A DNA stretch of 64,000 nucleotides from Hypomesus transpacificus (Eukaryota > Chordata > Actinopteri > Osmeriformes > Osmeridae): assembly GCF_021917145.1 (NCBI RefSeq), contig NC_061060.1:10069053-10133052 (forward strand). Direction: 5' to 3'. The first letter of the stretch is position 1. Each line of letters begins with the position of its first letter. The notes under the pieces were generated by a model that had not been told where the DNA came from, ran no database searches, and worked only from the letters and a program-made list of their open reading frames with translations. Below, one piece after another: positions 17,634 to 51,714 of the stretch. A program made the position numbers and the translations under genes.

Positions 17634-20600
17634 TTAGCTGGATTTCTTCGTTTGTGCTAGAGCTCTCGTTCCTCTTGTCTTGTTCAGCACCACAGTAGCC
17701 TGAGTGAGAGAGGAAAGGTACCAGTTTATTCTATTGACATTTCCCATACATAAACTAGCACAAATAAGAAAAAAGCTATCAAGTACCATAGTTGGCAAGT
17801 CTTTTATGTTTAAATATTAAAAAGGCACCATCTTGGCCATATTTATTTCAGCTCCATGAGTTTGTTCATCTCACCTTGTCCAATAAGACCTCTGCAGCCT
17901 GGTCAATGGTTCCTCCTACACCGTGGTATTGGCCAGAGTAGCGGATGAAGGCCCAGGCCAGCATGGCAATCATGGCCACACCCAACACACAGTCACATGC
18001 AAAAGCTACAGTACCCAGGCCAATGAAGAGCAACAGCCCTGACAGCACGTACAGGATGCATACTAGGACAAACAGCACAGCAGGGGTCCGGAATGCACTG
18101 AAGATATTCTTTGACTTTTAAAGAGAAATAAAAGAAAATCATATTAATAAACGGTTCTATCAACAAAAAATATAAAAAACTTTTTGTTCCATTATCTCAT
18201 GGTCAAAGTGTTGCCATTTGAAATAAGTAGGTTTTGTGGGACAGACTTTTACCTGGTTGTGCTTGCTGAAAGCCTTCCAGAGATCCAATATCTCAGCCTG
18301 CAGCTGACCCTGGTATTGGTCACAGTATGCCTTCCCTCCCATCTTCTTGGTGGAGGAGAAGATATGAAGGGACTCCTGGAGGTTGAATCTGTGCTTGTCC
18401 TCCAGTGTGTCCGGAGACACGTAGGGAAGATCGCCTCCACAAACCTGTGGGGTAAGAAATAGAACGGAGAAATGAATACTGTGAGGGCTAGACAGTACAG
18501 GGAGACCCCATGTTCATTTTGATCAAATTGACATGTGATGCAATGTCATGTTTGCTGAATACCAATCTCACCTTCTCCATGTTCTTGTAGTATTGGTCTT
18601 TGGCTGTTGCCACAGCGGCCAGGTTATTGGCCTCTGCTGTTGCCTTATAGGAGAAATTAAACAATTAAACATGACAGCAGCAATCCTGCTTCTTCCTTAG
18701 TGCATACATCTCAAAACCTTACACTCCCAAACCCTCTGTTGATATCTAACAAAATTGAATACAAATGCACAAAACTAGGAGAGGTTTGTCATGCTCAAAT
18801 GTTATAAAATATAGGCAGTGCACCTCTAGCATTGACTTTGGCTGAGGCAGGTCTTCACCCTGGTAAATCTTGATGTATGCCTGCCAAAAAAAATAACATG
18901 TCAAAGCCAACCCACACCCAATCAGAGGGACTCCCCATCCAGCAGTCGTCACATCACCTTGAAAAATTCAAGAAGGCCCCTGCAGGTGACTTTGTTTCCA
19001 TTGATCTCCTTCACAGCCAGTTTGTCTGGTTGCAGTAGGGTGGGGATCAGGTTACGCAGCTCATCTTTGAACTCTGGAGCCACATCTGAAACCAACCACC
19101 GTCCCATAAAACTGAAGTCAATCCAGTTAATTATCAATGCTGGTTAAGCAAAGAAAACAAGACAGGTGAAGGGATGAACGAGTGATTGGTCATACCACTA
19201 AGCTGTCCTTTGAAAGAAGGGCTGGTGGCCACCTTTAGCCCAGGGTGCGGAAGGAGGAAACAGGAAATGGAGGTGAAGCAGGAGTGGATGTGCTCTCTCA
19301 CCGTCTGCAGCTCCTTATGCTGGCTCTCTTTCACCTTTCAAACAATATCATGATATTGACGTGAACATACACGGGTTGTAGGAGACGCCACAGTCAATTT
19401 TGTGTTTGTGTAACATACATGGCAAATAAACCGAATTCTGATTCTGATGTAAACTGTGTATTTTTCCCCTATTGCATGTCAGTAATTAATAGAGTAGAAA
19501 TTAATAGAGTAGAAAGATGCAAATAAGCACTTACCTGCAACCGTTTGTCTAGAAACTGACTTCCCCCCACCAGCCCATAGGAGTATTCATAAGGAAAGCT
19601 CCAATCCCTGATTAGGAACATGAGAGACTGAGAGGAAAAAGGAAGGATGGGTGAATAGAGTTTCATAGTCAAGTTACAAGCAAACCTAATACCAGGACAG
19701 GAAAGCTTCAGGTAAAACCCTGAAGCTGGCAGATATAGGCTAATACGGTAAAGGAAATGTGTGATATCTGTGTGATAAATTATGTCACATAATTACACTC
19801 TTACATTATTATGTTTGAAGTTATTATACCTGAAAAGGCTTCAAGAAAATTTCATCCATAGCAAGACGACCATATTCTGTAAACAGCTGTAGGGAGACCG
19901 TATAGAGGACATCTGTCATTAGGATACATGTTATCAAAAACGTCAAAATGAATGAGGTTGCATGGATTTTAAACTGACATTGTTGATAGGCAATCCTTTA
20001 AGACAGGGTTATTTTTATTTGGAAATGTCATTATACAATTGAATACCTAAACCTGAAATACCTGTTCTTAAGCCCCTGGTAATTAAATGTATCTCTGGTT
20101 TCATGGAGGCAGGGGTTTTAAGGCTATAATCTTCTGTAAAAAATAAAATAAAAACACTGTTGCTGAGGAGAACCAACCTGAAGCTGCTGCAGGTCATCTT
20201 CCTGGATATTCTGTGAGAGATTGTAGATCTGCAAGGGGGATATTCAAACAATCTTCTATAAGAACAATAGCAAGTTGATTTACTACCTACTACTGTAGTA
20301 GGATTTATTTACTAAGGGGGAAACAGGACATCCACATATGCCACCAAAGCACATCACCTGTATAGAGCTGGTCATGGTACTGAGGGCAAAGATGGTGGCA
20401 CAGTCCTTCACAGTGGACTGGCTGTCAAAAGCTCCCTGGGTGTCCATCAGTACTACTGCCACCTACAGGGGAAAACAAAAACAACATGAATATGACCTGG
20501 CACCAGGCAGACACGATTCAATTAAATAATGGAAATCTAAATGTGGAGGGGGTGCAGGAATTATGTAGGGGGTTAGAACTCCCCCATTGTCACTACCTGT

Positions 20601-21206
20601 GTCCCATCATTCTTCTCTACCAGGAAGACCTCACTCCACAACAGGATGCCTGTTGTCTCTGGCTCGGAGCCCCCCCTCCAAGAAAAGCCTATTAAGGGCT
20701 CATTGTCCTTACCCAGCCAGTCCACACCTTGATCCTGAGTTAATTCAAACAAAGGGATATTAGAGGTATCTTACTGAATAGCAGCTAGACAACGCCTCTG
20801 CTATCTTGGCAGACAGTGTGGAATTGCTATTTGGTACACCACAATGTTAAAAGTATATATATTTTCTGTACAACAACCGCCTTTACATAAGGTCATAGAA
20901 ACATCCAGAGCAACATGAAAAATGGGTAAATGTAGATTTAAAACAAACAAACAAGGAAACAAACAGGGAATGTGTGTGGGGTTGGTTTACATAGGAACTG
21001 ACCTTCCTGTGCAAGTAACGGAGCATGAAGTCCAGAATAAAGCTCTTTCCTTTCCGGAATGCTCCAGCTACTGAGAGCACCACCACATCCTTGTCTCGGA
21101 CCTCAGGTGCCAGCAGTATACGCTCAAGAGCCTTTGTGTCCAAAGTAAATGAGTGGTCCTCCTTGCTCACAGACACAATTTGAACTGGGCCTGGCTCACT
21201 TCCCAT
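17634..21206 (-). CDS. atl3: Atlastin-3-like ER membrane-fusion GTPase
   Basis: Twelve coding exons on the minus strand, all GT-AG: 21206-21003, 20734-20597, 20462-20358, 20228-20178, 19886-19830, 19627-19535, 19334-19196, 19085-18958, 18880-18824, 18643-18572, 18444-18253 and 18114-17875, plus a thirteenth short one at 17699-17634. They encode 513 aa (human ATL3 541). Dynamin-like GTPase motifs are intact: P-loop GAFRKGKSF, switch [12 protein letters not shown], switch II DTQG and the [12 protein letters not shown] guanine motif. A three-helix-bundle linker and two adjacent membrane segments in exon 12 follow. The short tail corresponds to the membrane-perturbing C-terminal helix region. Atlastins tether and fuse ER tubules. 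ATL3 is chosen over ATL1 and ATL2 from the 11q13-type neighbours and from N-terminal similarity ([15 protein letters not shown]). Confidence 0.94.
19388..19448 (+). repeat. Retroposon 3'-tail-like fragment
   Basis: Within an atl3 intron, CATGGCAAATAAACC followed by two GAATTCTGATTCTGATG-type repeats resembles the 3' ends of fish LINE or SINE copies, which finish in short tandem TTCTGA units after an AATAAA-like motif. The upstream extent and the family cannot be set from sequence alone. Confidence 0.35.
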
Positions 21207-22460
21207 AATTCAAGTAACAGTCCCTGTGAGTGACAATATATGACCAGTTAGACATGCACTAAGTTTAGGGACATACGTTTGTCAACTTATTTGAATGCAG
21301 TTCAAAGCTCCTCATAAGAGAAGCAAAAGTCGAAGTTGCTTTTTTTCAGCAAGTCGTGGAAGTCCTACTGAAGTCTATGAAAGCACCATTTTTTACCAAC
21401 AAAAGCATCTTTGAAATGTCCTTGAAGTGATACAGCATACAGTAATTATTCAGGAGTCAGAAGTCAGGAGAGTGTTGAGTTCTGTGAAGAGCCGACCAGC
21501 CTGACTAGTTGCTGCGTCGTGATGCTGCGTCAACCGAGCTGCAGGCTACTGCATGCTCCACATCATCCACCCTTCGACTATCTCAATAGGTTTCATTGTT
21601 GCTGGCATGATGCACAGAGCTGCCCTTACCCTGGGCCATGATGAGCAAAACGGAAAGAAAATCTGTCTAACAAACCTGCAAAATCCAGAATTTAGATCTA
21701 TAACTCATTTTTTCTTGTCTAATGAATAGCACTACAGCCCGCAGCTAACGATGAGCTTTAAAGGTGTGGTACTCTGAATCATTCTCAACAAGTGACATGC
21801 CACAAATATCTCTGCTGTGTATCAAAACAGGCGGGGACGTGTGGCGTAACGTATGGAATAATTAGGCAACACTTCTTATTTTCACCATTCAGTAAGCACA
21901 TGAAGGGTGCATATACTAAATCGGACGTAGCGACATTACACAAAACACAACGCAAGATAATAGCTATGCTATTGCTAAGACTTACATAGCTTATACAAAC
22001 ACTGGTTGTAGCTATTACAGTAGCTAACAAACGTCATTCATACCTACTAGCTAGCTGGCTTAGTACTAGTAGCTAGCTGGTTGTCCTGGTGGTACCTAGT
22101 TGGCTAACCAACAACATGTTGACGACTACTACTAGACTAGTTGTGACATAGCCAGGCATAGTTAGCTAGTTGCACATCATCATGTCAAGCTCTTAACTAC
22201 AGTAACGCTACTGTTCTAGAGCAGTAAGGAATATTCTCACAGTTTCAAATTACTACATGTTTGTTAATTATTTAACTAGCTAGCCTAGCTACAGTAGTCA
22301 ATATACATTTATGTTGGGTTTAGCCTACCTTTGCTATAGCGAAATAATTCACAGCAGCAGGCGTGCTTGCCAGAAGTACAGTGAAAAGCTTGCTTAAACA
22401 CAACAAGCTAGAAAACTTTTCCAACTGCGTTGCTAGACAGTTCCGTCTTTGTGTTTTGTA
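21207..22460 (-). other. atl3: atl3 upstream region and probable promoter
   Basis: Upstream of the atl3 ATG on the minus strand there is no further coding sequence. The stretch 21990-22300 is unusually rich in CTAG-containing words (GCTAGCTGG, TAGCTAGC). A transition to CpG-containing sequence near 22430-22530 may mark the first untranslated exon and promoter. The boundaries are speculative. Confidence 0.35.
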
Positions 22461-23129: not shown

Positions 23130-23530
23130 ATTCAGCAACAATGTTTTATTGTCCCCTGAATGGAAGGTGATTTACCTGGCAGTAGATTTCCAAATTCTTC
23201 TGTTGTTCTCCATGAAAACATGGAGGCCCTGATTTCTATAAAACCAGGTTTGGTACTCTTCTCCAATTTCAATGTGCAGAACATTTCTATGTATTCTATG
23301 AATGCATTGTGTGCTGTGATTGCAAGTTTTTCTTCAGTGCATCAGGCAGGGGGCAATCACAGTATCTAAATAACAGTGCGCGATTCAAATTTCAGGGCAG
23401 TGTCAGCACAAAAGCAGCATGTGGTCAACCTCTACCACTTAATTTATATAATTATTTTCAGTTGCACATTGTCTTTAGTCCATTTGCTTTCCCCTTACTA
23501 TATGATTATACTCTGTCTGTGACATCATAA
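23130..23530 (-). other. 3' UTR of the FOXN-like gene
   Basis: The sequence after the forkhead-gene stop on the minus strand runs to TTTATT at 23145-23150, reading AATAAA on that strand. The UTR of about 380 bases is inferred from this signal. Confidence 0.5.
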
Positions 23531-25520
23531 TCAATGTCCACCCCCTGCCAGGTCCAGAAGTGACCCTGCAGCCTCTTGGGCCTCTGCATCTAGCTGCAAG
23601 ATCTCAACAGTCTCCAGGTCCAGTCCGGTGTCACCAGGAAGGACCAGGTACTGGTACTGGTGGTACTGGTAGTAATGCAGCTCTATATATCCGCTGTCTG
23701 ACAGGGGATCTTTCTCCATTTCCTCTTCAGCCTCCTCCTGGTACTCAACTGACTCCATGGTGACAAGCTCCACGTCAGGAGTAAAAGGACAGGGTGGGTC
23801 AGCAGACAGGGTTGATTGGTCTTCCAGGGGTTGGGACGAGGAGGAAGACAAGAGGAGGGTCTGAGAAAGGGAATCTGTTGGATAAAAACCCAAATCAGGT
23901 ATTGCAGACAGTTCTATGGCAGAACATGGGTATTACAACATACACAGTGAATATACGAAAAGTGTAGTTCTTCATCACAATATGTGCAATAGCTACACAG
24001 ATAAAAAAATATATATGTAGAATTATGTCTATACTATAGGCTTAAAACCAATTTAGCAACATACTGTGCTCTCACTGGGCTACATACACTCAGAGGCAAG
24101 AAGATTGACATAAAGAGTCTAGCCAGCCTGTTGCTGTGGTTATAGGTTACCAAGGTAATAGAAGGTTGTTGCCAAGACAACTGCACACAAACAGACCAAC
24201 CATGCTGAGAAAGGGAGAGCAAAAAGCTGCAGGTAAATTAAGTAAAAAAATAAAAAATCCAAGAAAGAAAGGTTTATAAAATTCCAGAAATACAAGGAAA
24301 TAGATAGTATTTAACTACAATGTGGGTTTAGATGAGAACAAACCTGAGATCTCTACAGTATCACACACCATTGATGTATCATAGTCAGCTCCCTCCAGCC
24401 TGCTCCACAGACAGCGTGGGGAAAATGAAAGTAGTTAAACTTATTACCTTAGAACATTTTACATTTCTTGCATTGAAAGCTAATAAACAGCATGTACAGT
24501 CTAAAGTATTTTTGTGTGTGTTAATATTATATATTCAAGTCTTTTGTCTGGGAAGCAGCTGGGTCTGCTGTAGTAATTAGCCATTAATTCACATTCAGTA
24601 ACAAATTGTGGGTCAAACCAAGAAAGCCTTGTGATATGTGTGTCATACTGCAATATAAAAATGTTGTGTTCAAACTCACAGTGCAGGGTTCTTCAGTAAA
24701 TTGCTGTTGGTGCTATGATAATAGTGAGTCTTCCTGAGCACCTCCAGAAGTGCAGGCCGATATTCTGGACACACACACCACAACGACCCTTTCCCCACAG
24801 ACTGAAACAAAAGCAATGTTAGCCATGTTAGAATAGATTAGTCCTAAAGCGTGATATAGTGTGTGTTTAGAAGTATGACCTCACCTGATTCTTGTCCCTG
24901 TGCATGCGACGGAAGCTCTTGCTGAGAGATAAATTGTGGCGAATGGAGTTCCTCCAACCTCCGGGTGCTGTCCGGTAGTAGGGAAAGTTGTTCACTATCC
25001 ATTCGTAGATAGCCTTCACCGGGAGCCTCTTGTCTGGTGCATCCTCTACTGCCATGAAGATCAGACTGCTGAAGGAGTACGGGGGCTTGGTAGGGGAAGA
25101 CGGAATGTGCTGGGCAGGTATGGGAGTCTGGGTTTCTAACTGGGGCAGTGGTGTTATTTTGGGCAGGGGCTGCAGGGGAAGCAAGTTGCCCCTTTGATGC
25201 AGCCAGCTAAGGCAGGTCAAGTCATCTTGTTCAAATGTGGTTATTGAATTGAGGCAGTGAGAGTTGTGTCCTTCAAGGCACTGAAGTGGAGACAAGGGGT
25301 GTAGGAGAGGAGAAAGAGGGTGAGAGTCGGAGCTGTGAATGGATTCTGGGGCTGAAGGAGAAAGTGAAGTAGGGGATGAGGGGAACGATAAAGGAGAGAG
25401 AGGGAGCGAAATATGGACATCTGAAGAGGCTCGAAGAGGAGAGGAAGTATAAGGCAGGGACTGACAGAGAGTGGGGAGAGAGGGTAAAGAGGTTTGCACT
25501 GTATGGGATTCAATCTCCAT
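23531..25520 (-). CDS. Forkhead transcription factor, FOXN2/FOXN3 group, third paralogue
   Basis: Four coding exons on the minus strand: 25520-24885, 24801-24680, 24399-24344 and 23874-23531. All are GT-AG and in phase, giving 385 aa. Residues 99-108 ([10 protein letters not shown]) match the conserved N-terminal motif of FOXN2/FOXN3. The forkhead domain spans about residues 145-245, with [13 protein letters not shown], the recognition helix [16 protein letters not shown] and wing [12 protein letters not shown]. The last exon carries the group's C-terminal signatures, KDPLSDSGY and [11 protein letters not shown]. Between them it is rich in Ser, Pro and Leu. The helix-3 residues that read DNA are kept, but CVCPEY replaces C(I/V)DPEY and NKCF has become SKSF, so it has diverged. 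It is expected to be a nuclear DNA-binding regulator. It may be annotated in fish as foxn2- or foxn3-like; I leave the symbol empty. Confidence 0.85.
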
Positions 25521-27426: not shown

Positions 27427-30002
27427 TCACCTGACCAAATGAGAGGTAAGCCAGTATATAATGATTGGCTGAAAGGCAGCAGTGGCCACGGTAATATAGA
27501 GACGGAGTCTAGGCTTGGCACTTGCCCCAGCCCCCATGGAGTCAGAGGAGAGTGATGACAGGATTTTCATTTTCAGAGAACGGACCTGGGGTAGAGAAAA
27601 TATACCAAATTTAGATACATTTTAAGGATGAAAAATGTATTTATAGCGATACACAACTGTTGCATTGGTTAGTACCTAAAACTTACTATGAAAAACATGA
27701 GGGCACATGAGGACCATGCCAGAGCGACAAAGTACCCATCACTGCCAAACAGTAGACCACACATCACTGTGAAAATCATTCTGTAACATAGATGATTGAA
27801 CAGGATGAGAAAGGTCTTAAATTCTCACAATGCCATACATTTTATTTACACTAATAGGCTACATGAAAGACGGTCTTACAGCATTCATCTGGACTGACGT
27901 GATTATTTTATTTCACCACGCGATGGAGTGTGGTTATAAAACTTTATACTACGAGACAATTTCAGAAAAGTGAAGGCATGACGGATGGCAACAACATTAA
28001 CAGAGCCCTCACCCAACATATTTGTATCCACTGTAGGCGATGAGATCGAAGGTTGAGAGGTCAGTGTGTACAGTGAGAAGGTACAAACTCAGAAGCATGA
28101 CCAGGACCTCAATAATGACCCACACTAGAGCTGTGCTGGCACACATACCCAGCACCTCCGGGCTGAACCTGCCATTGAACACAAACGATCAGATATAAAG
28201 AAACACAACAAAGCAGGAATAAAATTAGATTTTTTCGAATGCACGTAAACCTTGATCAAATGTAGTGTTTGTTGAAAGCAGTTAAACAAACCTCTTTTGA
28301 ATACCAAGGGCCATGCCAGCAAGTAGAATGTAGGTGATGAAAGCCATAGCTGAAAGCAAAATACAGGAATAAAGGAAATAAAAGGAAACAAATACAGGAA
28401 TGGTGTTGTCAACAAATTAATCAAGATTTAAAATGCTCATACAATGTTTCTGTCCAATTACAAATACATACAAAACTCTTACTTGGTATGTAAAGGTCGG
28501 GGGCATTCACATCATGCCTTGGTGTGAGAGGAGTGTCTCTGTGGTAACGAACTTCCCAGTCCTATTAACATGACCACAATATCGCATTAGACAAAAAGTT
28601 ACTAAAGTTACTGAACATAACAAGCAGTAACAGAATGTTTAGAAATCAAAACTTTTCAAATCTTTGTTGTGATACTTGACTAGATACAAATGCATATGTA
28701 TTTTTAAGTTTGCAACGTCTTTTGTAGCAATGTTCACAACATGTGCTAGAAAGGAGATTAGGACAAAGATCATGTTGTTTGGAAGCTTGAACATGATATG
28801 TTATGGGGGAACATAAGACATGAGCAAGGGAATAACAATACCTTTCTGTATAACCTTTACAGTGAAGTGATACAGTGTTGAAATCAGTGTATGAGAGTTC
28901 AGCTTCGATGGCATTATTACCTGATGTGTGTAAGGGAACATGAGGAGCATCAGTTTCTTCATGACGTATTTAGTATCCACAGCAAAGAAGTACTTCAGCT
29001 TGTTCACAGACATGAATCTGCTGATCTAAAAGGTAAACATTTTGAAATTAGGACTCTTCTCCCCGGACTACAGTTTTATCCAGAGTCGTTGGCTATGTCT
29101 CTTGAATGTGCTGGTCTTAAATCCCTAGGACTTGGGAAGCAATCGGACAGAAACCCAACTCTACCGACTCAACCCACATGACCACCTCCCATCAGGAATC
29201 AAAACGGGCCCACTGTGGCACCAATTTCTCACCTCCTTGTTGACCATGTCTTTACCCTGGTTGGCCAGGGAGGAACCGTACATCATGGCAGCACTGGCCA
29301 TTGGGTCAGCAAACAGGTCATTCACCCCAGCACCTCCAGCACCTCCAACTCCTGCAGCGGCTCCCATGTTGTACCCAGGAGTGTAATACGCCTGGCTGTT
29401 CATGTTTGGTGCCGGACCGCTGGTGTCTTCAAAGAGGAGGGGGTCCCCGGCAGGTGGAGCTGCTCGGGCTCTCGGCTTTGCTACAGTGCGGAAAGTAGTG
29501 GGTTAAAAAGTGGAGCTTCATTTTGGATACTTGTGAGAAAGAGTAGTCATCACTGTGTGACATACAACTTACTTGATTAATCAGGCAAGTAAAAATAGAA
29601 ATAAATACATTCTGTTAAGAAACCCCTGCCAAGAAGCAGGAGTTCAAATACCGTTATAAATACACATTTCAACATGTTACAGGGCAAGTGATTATGGCCT
29701 ATAGGAAAGTGCATCATTTTGTTAAGTGAGTTTTAAATCAATTATTTGGTAACCTTTTGGATGCGATATCATGCTCATCATAGATTAGATAGATAGCTAG
29801 AAACTTTATTGCCACACAACAATGTTGGTGGTATTCTTTTGTCATACGTGGCTCATGATGCAGGTTAGGTGTTGCCAGATGACTACTTTACATATACTGT
29901 GTATAGCTTGTGGATAGTACTATGACTTATCTGGCAAGATGTAAATGCAAACAGACAACGATGCCACTTACTTGCTCTGTACCCATGATGTGGCAGGTCC
30001 AT
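27427..30002 (-). CDS. yif1a: YIF1A-like ER-Golgi trafficking membrane protein
   Basis: Eight coding exons on the minus strand: 30002-29972, 29480-29233, 29025-28921, 28561-28483, 28349-28292, 28168-28013, 27780-27687 and 27585-27427. All have GT-AG junctions and together give 309 aa (human YIF1A 293). The N-terminal cytosolic part carries a Gly/Ala-rich stretch ([13 protein letters not shown]) and the conserved [25 protein letters not shown]. Then come [16 protein letters not shown], a YIF1 hallmark, and about five membrane segments, ending [12 protein letters not shown] as in the human protein. YIF1A partners YIP1-family proteins and acts in ER-to-Golgi transport and Golgi organisation. YIF1B is the alternative; the neighbours point to YIF1A. 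Confidence 0.94.
29790..29860 (-). repeat. Retroposon 3'-tail-like fragment, minus orientation
   Basis: In yif1a intron 1, GATTAGATAGATAGCTAGAAACTTTATTGCC reads on the minus strand as an AATAAAG signal followed by a degenerate TCTA tandem tail. This is the arrangement seen at the 3' ends of some fish LINEs such as Rex1. Only the extreme end is recognisable. Confidence 0.35.
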
Positions 30003-33196: not shown

Positions 33197-35263
33197 AATA
33201 TTGTGTTTCTGTCTACTTAAAAACATTTTTTTCTACATATTTTTGCCCTTATAGAAGTACTCCATGGCAGGTAGCAGTCAGTTTGTCCCGAGTCTGAATG
33301 CCATCACTTCAAACCAAGATCTCCAGTGGATGGTCCAGCCCTCACTTGGACCTCCACCTGGTCCCTCAAGTTCTCCACAACTCCCCTACTCATCACATCC
33401 AGGGCTCAGAGCACTGAACCCCTCACTACATTTTCGACCAGGTGTCATAAGAGCTGCTACCAGTTCCGGAGGGTCAACAAGACGCAGGAACGATGAACAT
33501 GTAAGAAGAACATCCAATGAATGAACATAGGGATGTCTACCCAGTCCACTTGAAATGTTGCAAAATATTTAAGGAACATGGAAATAGTTTATGACCAAAT
33601 AGAGGGACTGAACAGTATGTCCAATCCCATGGGGATTTAGTATAGCTCACTGAGTACTGCTACTGCGAATGAGGTGTAGAGATGGGCAACTGAGTCAGTG
33701 TGTTTAAAAGTATGTGTAATATCCTGTTGTGTGTGTGAGAGCTGAAAGTCTGACATGGCTGTACAACTATCTTGTTCTGGAGTAGTGGGGCAGTAATGGG
33801 ACAAGCCATGTGGTTGGAGGGCTGACAGTCTGGACTCTTGAGCCAAATTGTGTCAGATGTGAGCAAATACAGTTACTCAGTTAGTTGATGCTATTGAAAT
33901 GCTTTCATAACTTTTGAGGCTGTTAAGTACATTTTTTGAAAAAGGACTAAATAACTACCGAGGACCCAATTAGCTAAGTGCCCTGAAATTTTATGTGACA
34001 GGAAGTCAGCTATCATGTGACTCACTGGGGCAAGTCATGTGACTCATACCTGAGTCATGACAAGGGTCTGAGTGAGTCATCATCATACAAGGGCGGGGGA
34101 TAGGGAATGAATGGAAGCACGACATTGAGCAAAATGTTCAATGCAATCTGAGGAAGGGCGTATCAAAATGATAAAGGCTCAGACATTACAAAACTGTAAT
34201 GGTCTCTGTGGTTATGTGATGACTAGATACATACACAAGGGGGGGATATTTCACAAATTTATTGTACTTGAAAGTACAGTAATTTCCTACCCAACAGCTG
34301 CTTTCTTCCACTGAAGAAGCTGTTCAATAGCACCAAGGCCTGTTCAAGGGAGCGATATCCTCAGACTGATAGAGGGCACTATAATTGTCATGATAATTGT
34401 AATGTTACACACACTGTTCTTTAGCCAGTGACTTTCTAGAGTTGTAAATTGTTGTTCTTAATTTGTTATTTTCCTCTCACAGCTATCCCCTGAAGAGTTA
34501 GAGCGACGCAAAATACGGAGGGAGCGCAACAAACAGGCAGCTGCCAAGTGTCGAAATCGTCGTCGTGAGCTGACAGACACACTGCAAACTGTGAGTTAAA
34601 CTTGATATAGAGACACAAACATTCAACTTTAATGTTTAAATGTTTAAGTCGAGTTCTTTCTGTCTCTCACTTGTTTTCTCATTCTTCAATTAGGAGACCG
34701 ACCAACTGGAGGGTGAAAAGTCACGCCTGCAGAAGGAGGTAGCTGAACTGCAAAAGGAGAAAGAAAAACTTGAGTTGGTCCTGGAAGCCCACCGTCCCAT
34801 TTGCAAGGTCCAGGACTCGGACTCAGATTCAGATCCGAGTACAGAGCGCCCATCTTTGAAGGCCATCAAGATGGAACCTAGGGATTTTGAGCTACCTGGG
34901 CCCTCTGCTAAAAGTAAACCAAAGGAAAAGCCAAAACCCAAAATCTTGATTCCTTCCAAGCCCTTGACCAGCTCTGCCTCCACTGTCCACACTGAATCTG
35001 AAACCCTCCACACCCCGATTCTGATCTCTACTCCATCTCTTACTCCTTTCACGGCTAGCCTGGTCTTTACCTACCCCTCTGGTTCTTTGGACACCAGCGC
35101 CTCAGTCTCATCCCAGTCTCTTCCTGACCTCGGATCCTTTTCTCAACCTTCATCCCATAGGTCTCGAACCCCCCAACCCTGTAGTGTTGCCCATAGGCGA
35201 AGCAGCAGCAGTGGGGACCAGTCAGACCACTCCCTGAACTCCCCAACCATACTCACACTGTGA
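32723..35263 (+). CDS. fosl1: Fos-related antigen 1 (AP-1 bZIP subunit)
   Basis: Four coding exons: 32723-32833, 33255-33500, 34483-34590 and 34694-35263. All are phase 0 with GT-AG junctions and give 344 aa. The third exon is 108 nt, as in c-fos. The protein starts [12 protein letters not shown]. The basic region is at about residues 127-150 ([21 protein letters not shown]). A leucine zipper has heptad leucines at 153, 160, 167, 174 and 181, then His188, as in Fos proteins. AHRPICK follows. The C-terminus has KMEPRDFE and ends in the Fos-family tail [10 protein letters not shown]. It heterodimerises with Jun proteins to bind TGAGTCA. It is longer than human FRA1 (271). FOSL2 is the alternative; the adjacent ccdc85b, fibp and efemp2 fix it as the FOSL1 locus. 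Confidence 0.93.
33131..33192 (+). repeat. (AT)31 microsatellite in fosl1 intron 1
   Basis: An uninterrupted run of AT dinucleotides between fosl1 exons 1 and 2, about 60 bases before the exon 2 acceptor. It is probably length-variable. Confidence 0.97.
33691..34079 (+). promoter_or_regulatory. fosl1: Intronic AP-1 site cluster in fosl1 intron 2
   Basis: Five perfect TRE/AP-1 heptamers, TGAGTCA or its complement TGACTCA, start at 33691, 34018, 34040, 34051 and 34073. The last four fall within 62 bases. Two are preceded by TCATG, making TCATGTGACTCA, a composite that also reads as an M-box/E-box (TCATGTGA). The mammalian FOSL1 gene is known to be autoregulated through intronic AP-1 sites, so this is a strong enhancer candidate. 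Confidence 0.7.
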
Positions 35264-38170: not shown

Positions 38171-38773
38171 TCAGTCATCAGGTGAACACACCAGGTGAAG
38201 TTGATCAGGACTACCAACGCTGCCAGTGCTCGAACTTCCATCACCAAGGTCCCGAGCCACCATACATGGCAGGTTGAGCTCTGTGGAACCACCAGGACTG
38301 GAGTCGCTTCTGCTAACACATTCTTCCTCCAGAACCAAACACAGTTCCTTCAGGTCCAAATTTTCCTTCACCAAACCGTCTTGCATTCGTTCCAAGTCGG
38401 CAAGTTTTTTCAAGTATCCTCCCAAGTCTTCACGCATCACTTTTGCGGCGTGGTGACCAAACAATTGCCATTCTCTAGCAAGCTTTTTCACTTTGAGTCG
38501 GTCATCGTCAAGAAAACAGCACAGATCACGTAATTCTGTATTTTCTTCTTGTAAACGCTGGTTTATGGTTTTCAGCTCTCTGATCTCAAGTAGATGTCCC
38601 TGTAATTGCTTGTTAACTTCTTTTATCAGCCTTCCGCGCTGAATAAGAGCAGATATTTTTTCGGACTCTTCTTTACGCAGTCGACTCACCAATTCTTCCT
38701 TGGTGCTGCCGAGTAAGTCCTCGTCAGACATCTTTGACAACTCTCTATTGTAAATTTCACTGTCGCTGCCCAT
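38171..38773 (-). CDS. ccdc85b: Coiled-coil domain protein 85B (DIPA-like)
   Basis: The single-exon gene encodes 200 aa (human CCDC85B 202). The N-terminal half has SDEDLLGSTKEELVSRLRKEE. Then comes a long coiled coil (about residues 40-90 and 115-150) with the family blocks LQGHLLEIRELK, ELRDLCCFLDDDR and REDLGGYLKKL, and NLDLKELCLVLEEE. The C-terminus, DLGDGSSSTGSVGSPDQL, is nearly identical to the human end. The mammalian protein is a delta-interacting/adherens-junction-associated coiled-coil protein that represses some transcription factors and Wnt signalling. Intronless structure and position between fosl1 and fibp match human. Confidence 0.94.
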   Translation of the reverse strand: MGSDSEIYNRELSKMSDEDLLGSTKEELVSRLRKEESEKISALIQRGRLIKEVNKQLQGHLLEIRELKTINQRLQEENTELRDLCCFLDDDRLKVKKLAREWQLFGHHAAKVMREDLGGYLKKLADLERMQDGLVKENLDLKELCLVLEEECVSRSDSSPGGSTELNLPCMVARDLGDGSSSTGSVGSPDQLHLVCSPDD

Positions 38774-41010
38774 TTTATAATTGAAAGTAAATCAGTGACC
38801 CGAGGAAATGTGTCTATCTTCCCCAATTATTAGGGAAGAAACTTCAGCAACTTCTAGCCTATAGCCTAGCTGTGACATGAAAACTGTTCCTACATCTGCG
38901 AACAGTCTGCTTTCTTGGTTGGGTTTCTTTCATTTGCTTCTCTTCCAGTATCGATGCTGTTGTAGGCTAATGGTCAGAGGCAAATCTTTAAGAAAATATG
39001 AAATAACAAGCACCTAGTGTAGCTCATGTGTATTTCAATGTGCTATAAAATTCCCTGAACAAGATGGCTGAGAAAAACTAAAAATTGTCAGTAGGCTACC
39101 CAATAAATGTCAATCCATTAATCACACATCACGGTTTTAGAGGCCTATATTGGGCTATGCGATACACAGAGATATGTTATTGCTTAAGGCCTAATCCTTT
39201 ATCGGAAAACCTTGCATATGTGATAATTTTGTTTTCATGTCCTCTTAACAAAAATAACGCGCTAAACATCTGCTTCGTGTAGTCGGTCAATCCAGTTAGG
39301 TTACATGTATTTCCAGCATTTGGAGACGCTGTATGTGGCAGAACATCCAGTTTGTATTTGAGGCGAGGCTCAATCAGAAATACAGGGCAGAGAATATTCC
39401 TATGAGAATCTTGCGTAAAAGGACAGAAATTGTGCAGACCGATCTCTGCTCATCCTCTGATCCACTGGTGAACGACAACAATGTCCGCCTTCTTCCACTA
39501 CCACTTATCCTGAGGATGTCGCCTCTTCGGTTTCTCCACGGTTGACTATGTGTCGGCTAGATGCCCATTTCAGGATGCAGAACGAGGTTGTTATGATTCT
39601 TCGTTTAGATGCAAAGAAAAACAAAATATATATTTTGGCCTATCCTATTAACAAGACAAATAGGCCGAGAATTTTAACATTGCACATATAAAATCAATGT
39701 AGGCTAAAGCACTTTTGGCTGGAGATACGCGGTTGGACAGTGAAGGTCAAAATATTCACTGTCACTGGACATCACAGTTTCTGCCTAAACGCAACACAAC
39801 TCCTGCGAACATACAAAAATGCCTGATGGAGGTTGTAGGAGGGGTAGGCTATGTCCTCTCCCCGCTCACCCTCCCCTTTCTTCCTTTCCGTAAAACACTC
39901 CCGTGGAATGACATCACATTCCTCCATGAGTGTCAATTTTCATTAAATTTGCCACGCTGTATTTTGATATCCGGAATAATATTTAACAAAATATAGTACA
40001 GAAATATTAGGCATATATACTGTATAATAGCCTACATCTACATTTCTATAATATAATTGAATTATTTTTATTTCCACCTTTTATCACCCAACCGTCTCTA
40101 CCCATTTGCCATTTACTATGCATCATAGTTCCAGTAGTCATACAGAGAGACAGAGAAAGAGTTGGAGACATAATTTCTACTGCTCAATGTTGCTTGGTGA
40201 TCATCTAGGACCTCTAAACAATGTTTAAGGTCACAATTACAGTATGATTTTGAACACAAACGGAAAGTGTGACTATGTGCTTTTTCCATGCTAAGCTTAG
40301 GTATTCAGCCACATCCTTCCGCTCTCTACCCTTGCTCTATTGTTTCAGCAAGGCCATAACAATGCAGGGTGTTAGCCAGAACAAGAGGGGCTTGGGGATG
40401 AAACCAGGGCACTGGGAGGTTAGGCCATTACAGGGATGAATCCCAGTGAGTTGGAGGAGGGTGGTTGGTTTCCAGTGAGAGGGGTTTAGAACAAAAAGAC
40501 AGTTTACTCTGCAGTTTTAACCTTTTGTGATGATGGAGGACACACAGAGAGATACAGCTGAAACTGGATGGGAGGGGCAGGCAAAGGGATTTGTGGAGAT
40601 TTATAGAGATTAATCTCCACAGTAAAAAAAGGAAAAGCAGACACACACCAACAAACATTCATACACAAAATACACACATACAGGTATTTACCCACTTTAT
40701 CACACAGATAGGCTGCTATGAATTCCCCACAATAAAAACCTACTCTTAATTGTGCTATTAAGCAAGGCACTTGATGCCGAAACTGTTTAGGGGTGAACAT
40801 CTCTATTTGTCTTGGAGTCCTGGAGACATACTAAAAACATATCAGAAGAACAATTATGCTATTGGATGAACATGAACAATAATAAACGTTGTTTAATATT
40901 TATTATGTATTTTTTGGTTGTATTTCATATTCTTCTTGTTTTGTGTGTGTGCCCGTGTTGGTTTCCATGCGGAAAGGGTTACATTCACTGCCATTTCCTG
41001 TTCCATTTTC
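38774..41010. other. ccdc85b-fibp intergenic region
   Basis: These genes diverge, so promoters of both lie here. A perfect CArG motif CCTATATTGG is at 39144-39153, about 370 bases upstream of ccdc85b; one such match in a stretch this size could be chance. No other gene was seen. Confidence 0.55.
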
Positions 41011-49831: not shown

Positions 49832-51714
49832 ATGCGGGGTATCTGTGTTCCAGTCTTGTGTGTGTGTGTGTCTGTGCTCCTTCACAGCGCTATTTCACAG
49901 NNNNNNNNNNNNNNNNNNNNNNNNNNNNNNNNNNNNNNNNNNNNNNNNNNNNNNNNNNNNNNNNNNNNNNNNNNNNNNNNNNNNNNNNNNNNNNNNNNNN
50001 CAGACGTAAACGAATGTGACATGGGCGCCCCCTGCCAGCAGAGGTGTTACAACACTTATGGCACCTTCCTCTGTCGTTGTGACCAGGGTTATGAGCTGGG
50101 GCCTGATGGCTTTGTCTGCAACGGTGAGTACAGTCTGTACTTTGATCCGTCGAAGTACAGTTAGACGGTTCAAGGGTTCAAGGGCACATGAAAAAGGACA
50201 GCCATGTTCTATAAACAGCCACCTCGTCGTTGTCTTTTGTTCTGCAGACATAGATGAGTGCAGCTACTCCAGCTACCTCTGCCAGTTCCAGTGTGTAAAC
50301 GAGCCAGGGAAGTTCTCCTGTGTGTGCCCAGAAGGATACCAGCTGCTGGGCACTCGGCTGTGCCAGGGTGAGTAACCTGTCCTTCATATCCTCCTCGTCT
50401 TCTCCATCCCTTCCTCATCCTAGTTTTCAACACCATCAAACAAACCTCATATCCGTCTGTCTGTCTGTCTGGCCCTTATTGTCTTTCCCACCTAGACATA
50501 AATGAGTGTGAGATGGGTGTAAACCAATGTACGGACACACAGACCTGTGTAAACATCCACGGAGCTTATCAGTGTGTGGACACAAACCGCTGCCAGGACC
50601 CGTACGTGCAAGTGTCTGACAAGTGAGTCTCTCTCTCCTCACACACACACACATCTTTCCCCGATTATTAAACTATGCCCTGGACCCAAATCTCTAAATA
50701 TGATCAGCAAAGCCCCCAAATAATTTCTTAGATTGCTCCAATTTCGTTTTCCATGTTTATGTCCAATTCAGTGACCTTTCCCGCTAAAGTGTGCCAGGAC
50801 AATTAGAAACCTATTAGAATGCTGAAACAAGTGTTAAATTGCCAACATGTGTGGGACAGGCAATAATACACCGTGTATTTTGGCATGAAACATATTCAGA
50901 TACTGTTTAAAGTCATCTGTCTTAGTTTTGAAATGGAGAGCTAAGCACAATGTAATGCATTCCCTCTTGTGGTACTGTTGTGAATTACACTTTTCACTGT
51001 ATCTAGTTCATCGGACATTTAATCTGTTTTGACGTAACATTGAACATATGAATTTACTATTTGAAAGTACAAAATGTTTTCAATAAGATAGAAAGGAATT
51101 CAATCAGCTATTTACTTCCACATATTTATACATATGTGGCATGTCATGTAGATGTACAGTAAGCCGGAGGCTTGATCACATCCTGTCTCCATGGTTTCTG
51201 CAGCCGCTGTGTGTGTCCTGTGACCAAGCCTGCCTGCCGAGACATGCCCTTCTCCATCGTCCACCGCTTCATGAGCATCACCTCGGAGCGCTCCGTCCCC
51301 TCTGACATCTTCCAGATCCAGGCCACCAGTGTGTACCCCGGGGCCTACAACACCTTCCGCATCCGCTCGGGGGACGACAATGGGGACTTCTACATAAGGG
51401 TGAGTCCCGTGCTAGTTACGGTGCCGTAAGGCACTGCAGCGCCCCCTGCTGTTACAGTTCTGGGGTAACAATGTACTTAAGTGTCCTCCAAACGAGCCTA
51501 CTCATTGTAAAGTGATCCCCATTCAAATGATCTCCCTGTGTCTCTCCCTAAGCAAATCAACAACATCAGCGCCATGCTGGTTCTGGCTCATGCTGTGACT
51601 GGACCCAGAGAGTACACACTGGACCTGGAGATGGTGTCGGTTAATCCCCTGCTCAGCTACCAGACCAGCTCCGCCCTGCGGCTCTCCATCTATGTAGGCC
51701 CTCACGCCTTCTAG
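49832..51714 (+). CDS. efemp2: Fibulin-4 (EFEMP2), interrupted by an assembly gap
   Basis: Visible exons: a signal-peptide exon from the ATG at 49832 to the gap ([19 protein letters not shown]), then 50004-50123, 50248-50367, 50496-50622, 51204-51399 and 51553-51714. Each 120-nt exon is one calcium-binding EGF module ([31 protein letters not shown]). The last two form the fibulin C-terminal domain ([44 protein letters not shown]), ending SIYVGPHAF. Compared with human EFEMP2, the modules from the atypical first EGF through DIDECRYRYC, roughly 145-190 residues, are missing and must lie in the 100-N gap. Fibulin-4 is secreted into the extracellular matrix and is needed for elastic-fibre assembly and lysyl oxidase recruitment. 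The choice over fibulin-3 and fibulin-5 rests on sequence and on the neighbour fibp. Confidence 0.94.
49901..50000. other. Assembly gap (100 N) inside efemp2
   Basis: Exactly 100 Ns is the usual placeholder for a gap of unknown size. It interrupts efemp2 between the signal-peptide exon and the EGF exon starting at 50004. Several exons are absent, so the true distance must be longer than 100 bases. Confidence 0.99.

Follow-up and report, generated by a model that had tools for sequence, protein, structure and literature searches.

A third FOXN2/FOXN3-type forkhead gene beside atl3 in Hypomesus transpacificus: a probable ohnologue of early-vertebrate age that the mammal line lost

The DNA analyzed here (the window) is a stretch of 64,000 nucleotides from Hypomesus transpacificus, and judged by its sequence, the forkhead gene located in it between atl3 and yif1a is a member of the FOXN2/FOXN3 group and a third gene of this type, separate from foxn2 and foxn3 of the same genome. 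This gene, referred to below as the window FOXN gene, is absent from the human set and is probably an early-vertebrate ohnologue kept in this fish and, by position, in salmon, and lost on the mammal line. We consider it likely that the early vertebrate genome doublings produced it as the FOXN member of the ATL3/FOSL1/CCDC85B/EFEMP2 block, which we take to be of the human 11q13 type.

Gene structure and membership of the FOXN2/FOXN3 group

The window FOXN gene occupies positions 23531-25520 on the minus strand and comprises four coding exons that encode an intact protein of 385 amino acids, with the ATG at 25520 and a TGA ending at 23531. A four-exon gene of this type had been predicted here from the letters of the window, and the gene model bore out its coordinates, exons, and motifs. 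The introns are in phases 0, 2, and 1, all three begin with GT and end with AG, and neither an internal stop nor a frameshift occurs across the 1158 coding bases; the exon 3 donor, GTTTGT, is weak. An acceptor-like site approximately 46 bases upstream of the ATG hints at a possible 5' non-coding exon. The features of the gene are as follows (coordinates of the motifs and of forkhead part 1 were counted by hand):

24885..25520, minus strand: coding exon 1, with the Ser/Pro-rich N-terminus, the WLH motif, and forkhead residues 1-68 (gene model, Pfam Forkhead)
25197..25226, minus strand: N-terminal WLH motif of the FOXN2/3 group (aligned with same-genome foxn2 and foxn3)
24885..25088, minus strand: forkhead part 1, helices 1-3, including the recognition helix (Pfam and PDB matches)
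24680..24801, minus strand: coding exon 2, forkhead wing and linker (gene model, PDB match; matching exon in same-genome foxn2)
24344..24399, minus strand: coding exon 3, short, like the ESDIDA exon of same-genome foxn2, with the weak donor (gene model)
23531..23874, minus strand: coding exon 4, with the acidic C-terminus and the stop (gene model, residue counts)
23687..23713, minus strand: KDPLSDSGY motif (compared with assumed human FOXN2 and FOXN3 sequences)
23543..23575, minus strand: EAAGSLLxLAG-type C-terminal motif (EAAGSLLHLAG in same-genome foxn2)
23145..23150, minus strand: AATAAA, candidate poly(A) signal 380 bases past the stop (sequence read)

A second AATAAA is found 567 bases past the stop. 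Serine and proline account for 39 of the 105 residues of the N-terminus. Exon 4 also matched Pfam Toxin_10 below the cut-off (0.084), presumably by chance.

The first open reading frame of the gene matched Pfam Forkhead at 8.2e-27, and the joined forkhead and wing matched human FOXN3 (6nce) at 1.4e-42 in a PDB search that returned no FOXN2 chain among the matches, the next forkhead being FOXK2 at about 2e-24. The alignment revealed an N-terminal [DE]LTxLxWLH motif common to the window FOXN gene and to foxn2 and foxn3 of the same genome. The phase 0 intron falls within the forkhead, directly before the GKGSLW wing; in same-genome foxn2 the wing likewise resides on a separate exon, and in same-genome foxn3, whose wing exon was looked for and not found, the reading frame departs at the same forkhead residue. 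The C-terminal EAAGSLLxLAG motif is present in the window FOXN gene and in same-genome foxn2.

Searching the 437 Mb assembly with Pfam Forkhead yielded 77 matches, and 30 loci were fetched. Frames were read for the seven loci with a match stopping before profile position 80, the match at the other 23 fetched loci reaching position 87 or 88 of the profile within a single exon, and the remaining 47 matches were judged from the profile range alone, so another divergent copy may exist. Three of the seven loci read are of the FOXN2/3 type, namely the window FOXN gene (C1), foxn3 (C3:8.46 Mb), and foxn2 (C11:1.64 Mb). The forkhead of the window FOXN gene is 66% identical to that of same-genome foxn3 (45/68 columns), 62% to that of same-genome foxn2, 63% to human FOXN3, and 61% to human FOXN2. 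Human and fish proteins share 90% identity for FOXN3 and 85% for FOXN2, and FOXN2 and FOXN3 share 75-77% (the human FOXN2 sequence used being an assumed one). These values agree with the original prediction that the gene is no recent copy of foxn2 or foxn3, since its 62% and 66% contrast with the 85% and 90% seen between human and fish. The chromosomal arms that had been assumed for human FOXN2 (2p) and FOXN3 (14q) also match published positions, 2p16.3 and 14q31.3-q32.11, respectively (PMC6555274).

The likeness to FOXN3 (CHES1) consists of the forkhead class, the WLH motif, and the S[IV]GKGSLW wing, and extends to DSGY and EAAGSLL when assumed human letters are compared; FOXN3 differs in lying on a different chromosome, in its start MGPVMPPSKK, which has no counterpart in the window FOXN gene, and in a C-terminal stretch that is basic, whereas that of the window FOXN gene is acidic. 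FOXN2 (HTLF) has the same architecture, and its wing, short DID, and C-terminal exons were seen in same-genome foxn2; however, the exon junction is Q|S in the window FOXN gene and K|V in FOXN2. Same-genome foxn2 (C11:1640001-1649000) carries LWEERG in place of DSGY, which the window FOXN gene retains. FOXR1 (FOXN5), a forkhead protein formerly filed under FOXN, was rejected as the identity of the gene by an alignment score of 133 versus 352 for FOXN3 (FOXR1 letters assumed). Conserved neighbors described for FOXR1 are upk2, ccdc84, and rps25, and six FOXN/FOXR members have been reported (PMC6109588).

Gene neighborhood and the salmon counterpart

The window contains, in this order, a PRSS23-like trypsin-like gene, a cofilin gene, atl3, the window FOXN gene, yif1a, fosl1, ccdc85b, an EFEMP-like EGF gene, and npas4, several of these exact names being presumed or taken from the salmon gene set. 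The immediate neighbors were identified as follows:

18163..21209, minus strand: atl3 exons, some of them matched (PDB Atlastin-3 best for 20886-21209 and two further exons)
29164..29502, minus strand: yif1a exon (Pfam YIF1 0.0033, weak and below the cut-off; name supported by the salmon gene set)
34462..35263, plus strand: fosl1 bZIP exons (bZIP-type match; name from the original prediction and the salmon gene set)
38174..38791, minus strand: ccdc85b (Pfam CCDC85 1.2e-80; the letter b presumed, in line with the salmon list)

Further domains found in the window are EGF_CA, cofilin, and the NPAS4 bHLH. The human copies of these gene families are located at 11q13. The window FOXN gene resides in an ohnologous block that has a set of block genes to itself: atl3, fosl1, ccdc85, cofilin, and EFEMP-like genes. 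At the left end of the window, positions 2-895 contain frames resembling reverse transcriptase (GVPQGSVLGPLL), which by eye look like a LINE-type fragment, and 100 N at about 49900-50000, inside the EFEMP-like gene, mark an assembly gap.

Four atlastin loci were considered, on C1 (the window), C3, C11, and C21; a cluster on C23, presumed to consist of GBPs, and weak single matches (C11, two on C22, and C25) were set aside. Among PDB chains, the window atlastin corresponds to atl3 (Atlastin-3, 109.6 bits versus 90.7) and the C3 atlastin to atl1 (Atlastin-1, 105.4 bits versus 80.1 for Atlastin-3), while the C11 atlastin matched Atlastin-3 best (84.9 versus 76.2 bits for Atlastin-1), with no ATL2 chain among the matches. 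We take the C11 and C21 atlastins to be atl2-like from comparison with assumed human sequence. Each FOXN2/3-type gene is thereby paired with an atlastin on its chromosome: foxn3 with atl1 (C3), foxn2 with the atl2-like gene (C11), and the window FOXN gene with atl3 (C1); C21, which bears the second atl2-like copy, gave no FOXN match. Only 2.3 kb separate the window FOXN gene from atl3; the distances are 2.7 Mb for foxn3 and atl1 and 13.9 Mb for foxn2 and the atl2-like gene, so these two pairs represent linkage by chromosome only. A hand estimate from chromosome lengths, made post hoc and assuming independence, puts the chance of such an atlastin pairing at about 7 in 100,000.

Other markers gave a mixed picture. 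On C3, a FOS-family gene is 86 kb away from foxn3, compared with 9 kb between fosl1 and the window FOXN gene. CCDC85 genes are present on C1 and C3, the genome search found none on C11, and none of the six reticulon matches in the genome, considered as a block marker, falls on C1. The linkage on C3 is mixed: foxn3 is near fosl2-like and ccdc85a-like genes, although human FOXN3 is on 14q, and by presumed names (those of these two genes and of the other FOSL2 and CCDC85A/B/C loci) C3 combines genes that human has on 14q and 2p. Paralogues of the window's genes had been noted on both human arms that carry a FOXN gene; in this fish, the presence of an atlastin on every FOXN chromosome agrees with paralogous blocks, whereas the lack of CCDC85 on C11 and the mixture on C3 do not. 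The presumed fosl2-like gene is at C3:8.550 Mb and foxn3 at C3:8.464 Mb. In human, FOSL2 and FOXN3 occupy separate chromosomes; the closeness on C3 possibly reflects an ancient linkage between FOS and FOXN genes or a fusion. The CCDC85 genes at C3:9.405 Mb and C6:8.747 Mb are alike, are presumed to be ccdc85a-like, and may be a pair that the teleost doubling created.

The same gene set appears in a selection-sweep table for Atlantic salmon, on chromosome 5 at 32.325-32.475 Mb, where it also includes ubl3, snx12, slc7a3, a FIBP-like gene, and EFEMP2, and where the alias column gives foxn3 (PMC7147387, Table 3). The entries comprise LOC106604707 (serine protease 23-like), 708 (cofilin-2-like), 709 (atlastin-3-like), LOC106604710 ("forkhead box protein N2-like", with a transcript variant), 711 (YIF1A-like), 712 (fos-related antigen 1-like), 713 (CCDC85B-like), 715 (FIBP-like), and 716 (EFEMP2) (PMC7147387, Table 3). 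The numbers 106604707-106604713, 715, and 716 follow the order of the window, an order that we infer from the numbers, as the table states none. By its LOC number, LOC106604710 falls between the atlastin-3-like and YIF1A-like genes, and by position, on which its orthology rests, the window FOXN gene is common to this fish and salmon. Since salmon lists a "forkhead box protein N2-like" gene in the same set, the gene is already annotated. In the portions of the literature accessible to us, PMC7147387 alone was found to name a gene at this place, and no description of it as a third FOXN2/3 ohnologue was found. Genes called "forkhead box protein N3-like" are mentioned for salmon and ayu (PMC7648306, PMC11764881); the salmon gene was rejected as the counterpart because it is on chromosome 9, a different locus, and the ayu gene (LOC136948060), cited with no place given, may or may not be the same as the window FOXN gene. 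Pattern matches in viral contigs and prokaryote genomes (117 and 54, respectively) yielded no confirmed relative, and the phage collection contained none.

Phylogeny and competing explanations of origin

Trees were computed from two small data sets, one of 92 columns, in which same-genome foxn3 lacks the wing, and one of 86 columns analyzed with three models, with six sequences, that of human FOXN2 being an assumed one. The best tree pairs the window FOXN gene with same-genome foxn3 (bootstrap 70 and 73), and a position as sister to FOXN3 as a whole is only 0.1-0.9 log units below it. Placing it outside both FOXN2 and FOXN3, or as sister to all FOXN2, costs 3.3-3.8 log units and is not rejected (AU 0.07-0.11), while nesting with same-genome foxn2 is rejected in both data sets (AU p 0.005-0.016). 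The branch of the window FOXN gene is long (0.5-0.6) and could mislead the trees in either direction. The trees thus show neither the expected separate third clade nor a nesting within foxn3, the pairing with same-genome foxn3 being slightly best and the sister-to-FOXN3 position nearly equal, although placement within same-genome foxn2 was excluded as expected.

The best tree is in line with an alternative origin, in which foxn3 was duplicated in the teleost-specific doubling or later and the copy, evolving fast, was relocated to the atl3 block before the split of salmon and this fish. The shared residues LIFMA, EDAP, and S[VI]GKG and the salmon alias foxn3 (PMC7147387) point the same way, although LIFMA is probably ancestral because it also occurs in FOXN1. 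We nevertheless regard such a duplicate as unlikely. Its identity to same-genome foxn3 (66%) is far below the 90% between human and fish FOXN3, and the neighboring atlastin is ATL3, compared with ATL1 on the foxn3 chromosome, as would not be expected of a sister block of foxn3; a relocated duplicate would escape this last comparison, but its relocation must then have ended in a block paralogous to its own. For this reason, we weighted location above the trees, and location favors an early-vertebrate origin. The salmon name "forkhead box protein N2-like" (PMC7147387) would imply a duplicate of foxn2, which appears very improbable: DPLSDSGY resembles the assumed human FOXN2 sequence and the position as sister to all FOXN2 survives the AU test, yet same-genome foxn2, with which nesting is rejected, is without the DSGY motif.

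A further possibility is that the gene is decaying under relaxed constraint and will soon be a pseudogene. The long branch, the weak exon 3 donor, and the Ser/Pro-rich N-terminus are compatible with decay, but the uninterrupted coding sequence, the kept motifs and contacts, and the transcript variants listed in salmon (PMC7147387) argue against it, and we consider it quite improbable. The missing early-vertebrate member that had been predicted thus draws support from the ATL3-type block, the pairing of every FOXN2/3-type gene with an atlastin on its chromosome, and the matching set of genes in salmon, and fails to receive it from a third clade; the best PDB match of the C11 atlastin, Atlastin-3, and the salmon alias foxn3 weigh against this origin.

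DNA-binding part, C-terminus, and potential role

In FOXN1, the base contacts are made by N317, S318, R320, and H321, and binding to FHL sites apparently requires glycine 314 (PMC7062188); conservation of the histidine in helix 3 is also reported (PMC12135187). Compared with these positions, all five residues (G, N, S, R, and H) are kept in the window FOXN gene, in GGWRNSIRH. The LIQALK stretch, which aids FOXN3 at FHL sites, is replaced by LLEVLR, without proline. Altered DNA binding, which had been proposed on account of wing and helix residues (CVCPEY, SLSKSF), is not supported, as the contacts named in PMC7062188 are intact and the odd residue, C in the window FOXN gene, is H in same-genome foxn2 (CVHPEY) and hence represents family variation. 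With the contact residues and the FHL glycine kept, the choice of FKH and FHL sites should be like that of FOXN3, and the forkhead would be expected to read the same sites.

The C-terminus departs further from its relatives. Exon 4 contains one basic and 25 acidic residues among 114, and the basic stretch between DSGY and EAAGSLL, typical of FOXN2/FOXN3 but not defining, is missing: none of its 37 residues is K or R, compared with 12/40 in human FOXN3, 7/31 in human FOXN2 (both assumed sequences), and 13/33 in the matching part of same-genome foxn2. The C-terminus of FOXN3 binds SKIP and represses (PMC6555274). The acidic exon of the window FOXN gene hints at a changed effector role: having lost the basic stretch, the protein probably no longer recruits the repressor partners of FOXN3 in the same way, and it may compete with or oppose foxn3 and foxn2 at shared targets, a proposal that we advance with moderate to low confidence. 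The complete scenario, in which an early-vertebrate third ohnologue, overlooked because a fish annotation names it foxn2-like, kept the site choice of FOXN3, exchanged the repressor C-terminus for an acidic one, and acts as a foxn3 antagonist in fish, is doubtful at present.

If the proposed origin is true, at least three ohnologues existed in the FOXN2/3 family of vertebrates, one of which is missed by counts based on mammals, and the misleading fish annotation name (foxn2-like) would be corrected. The gene would then be a hidden paralogue to weigh in foxn2 and foxn3 knockouts in fish, and it would provide a natural case in which the effector end of a forkhead protein changed while the part that reads DNA stayed.
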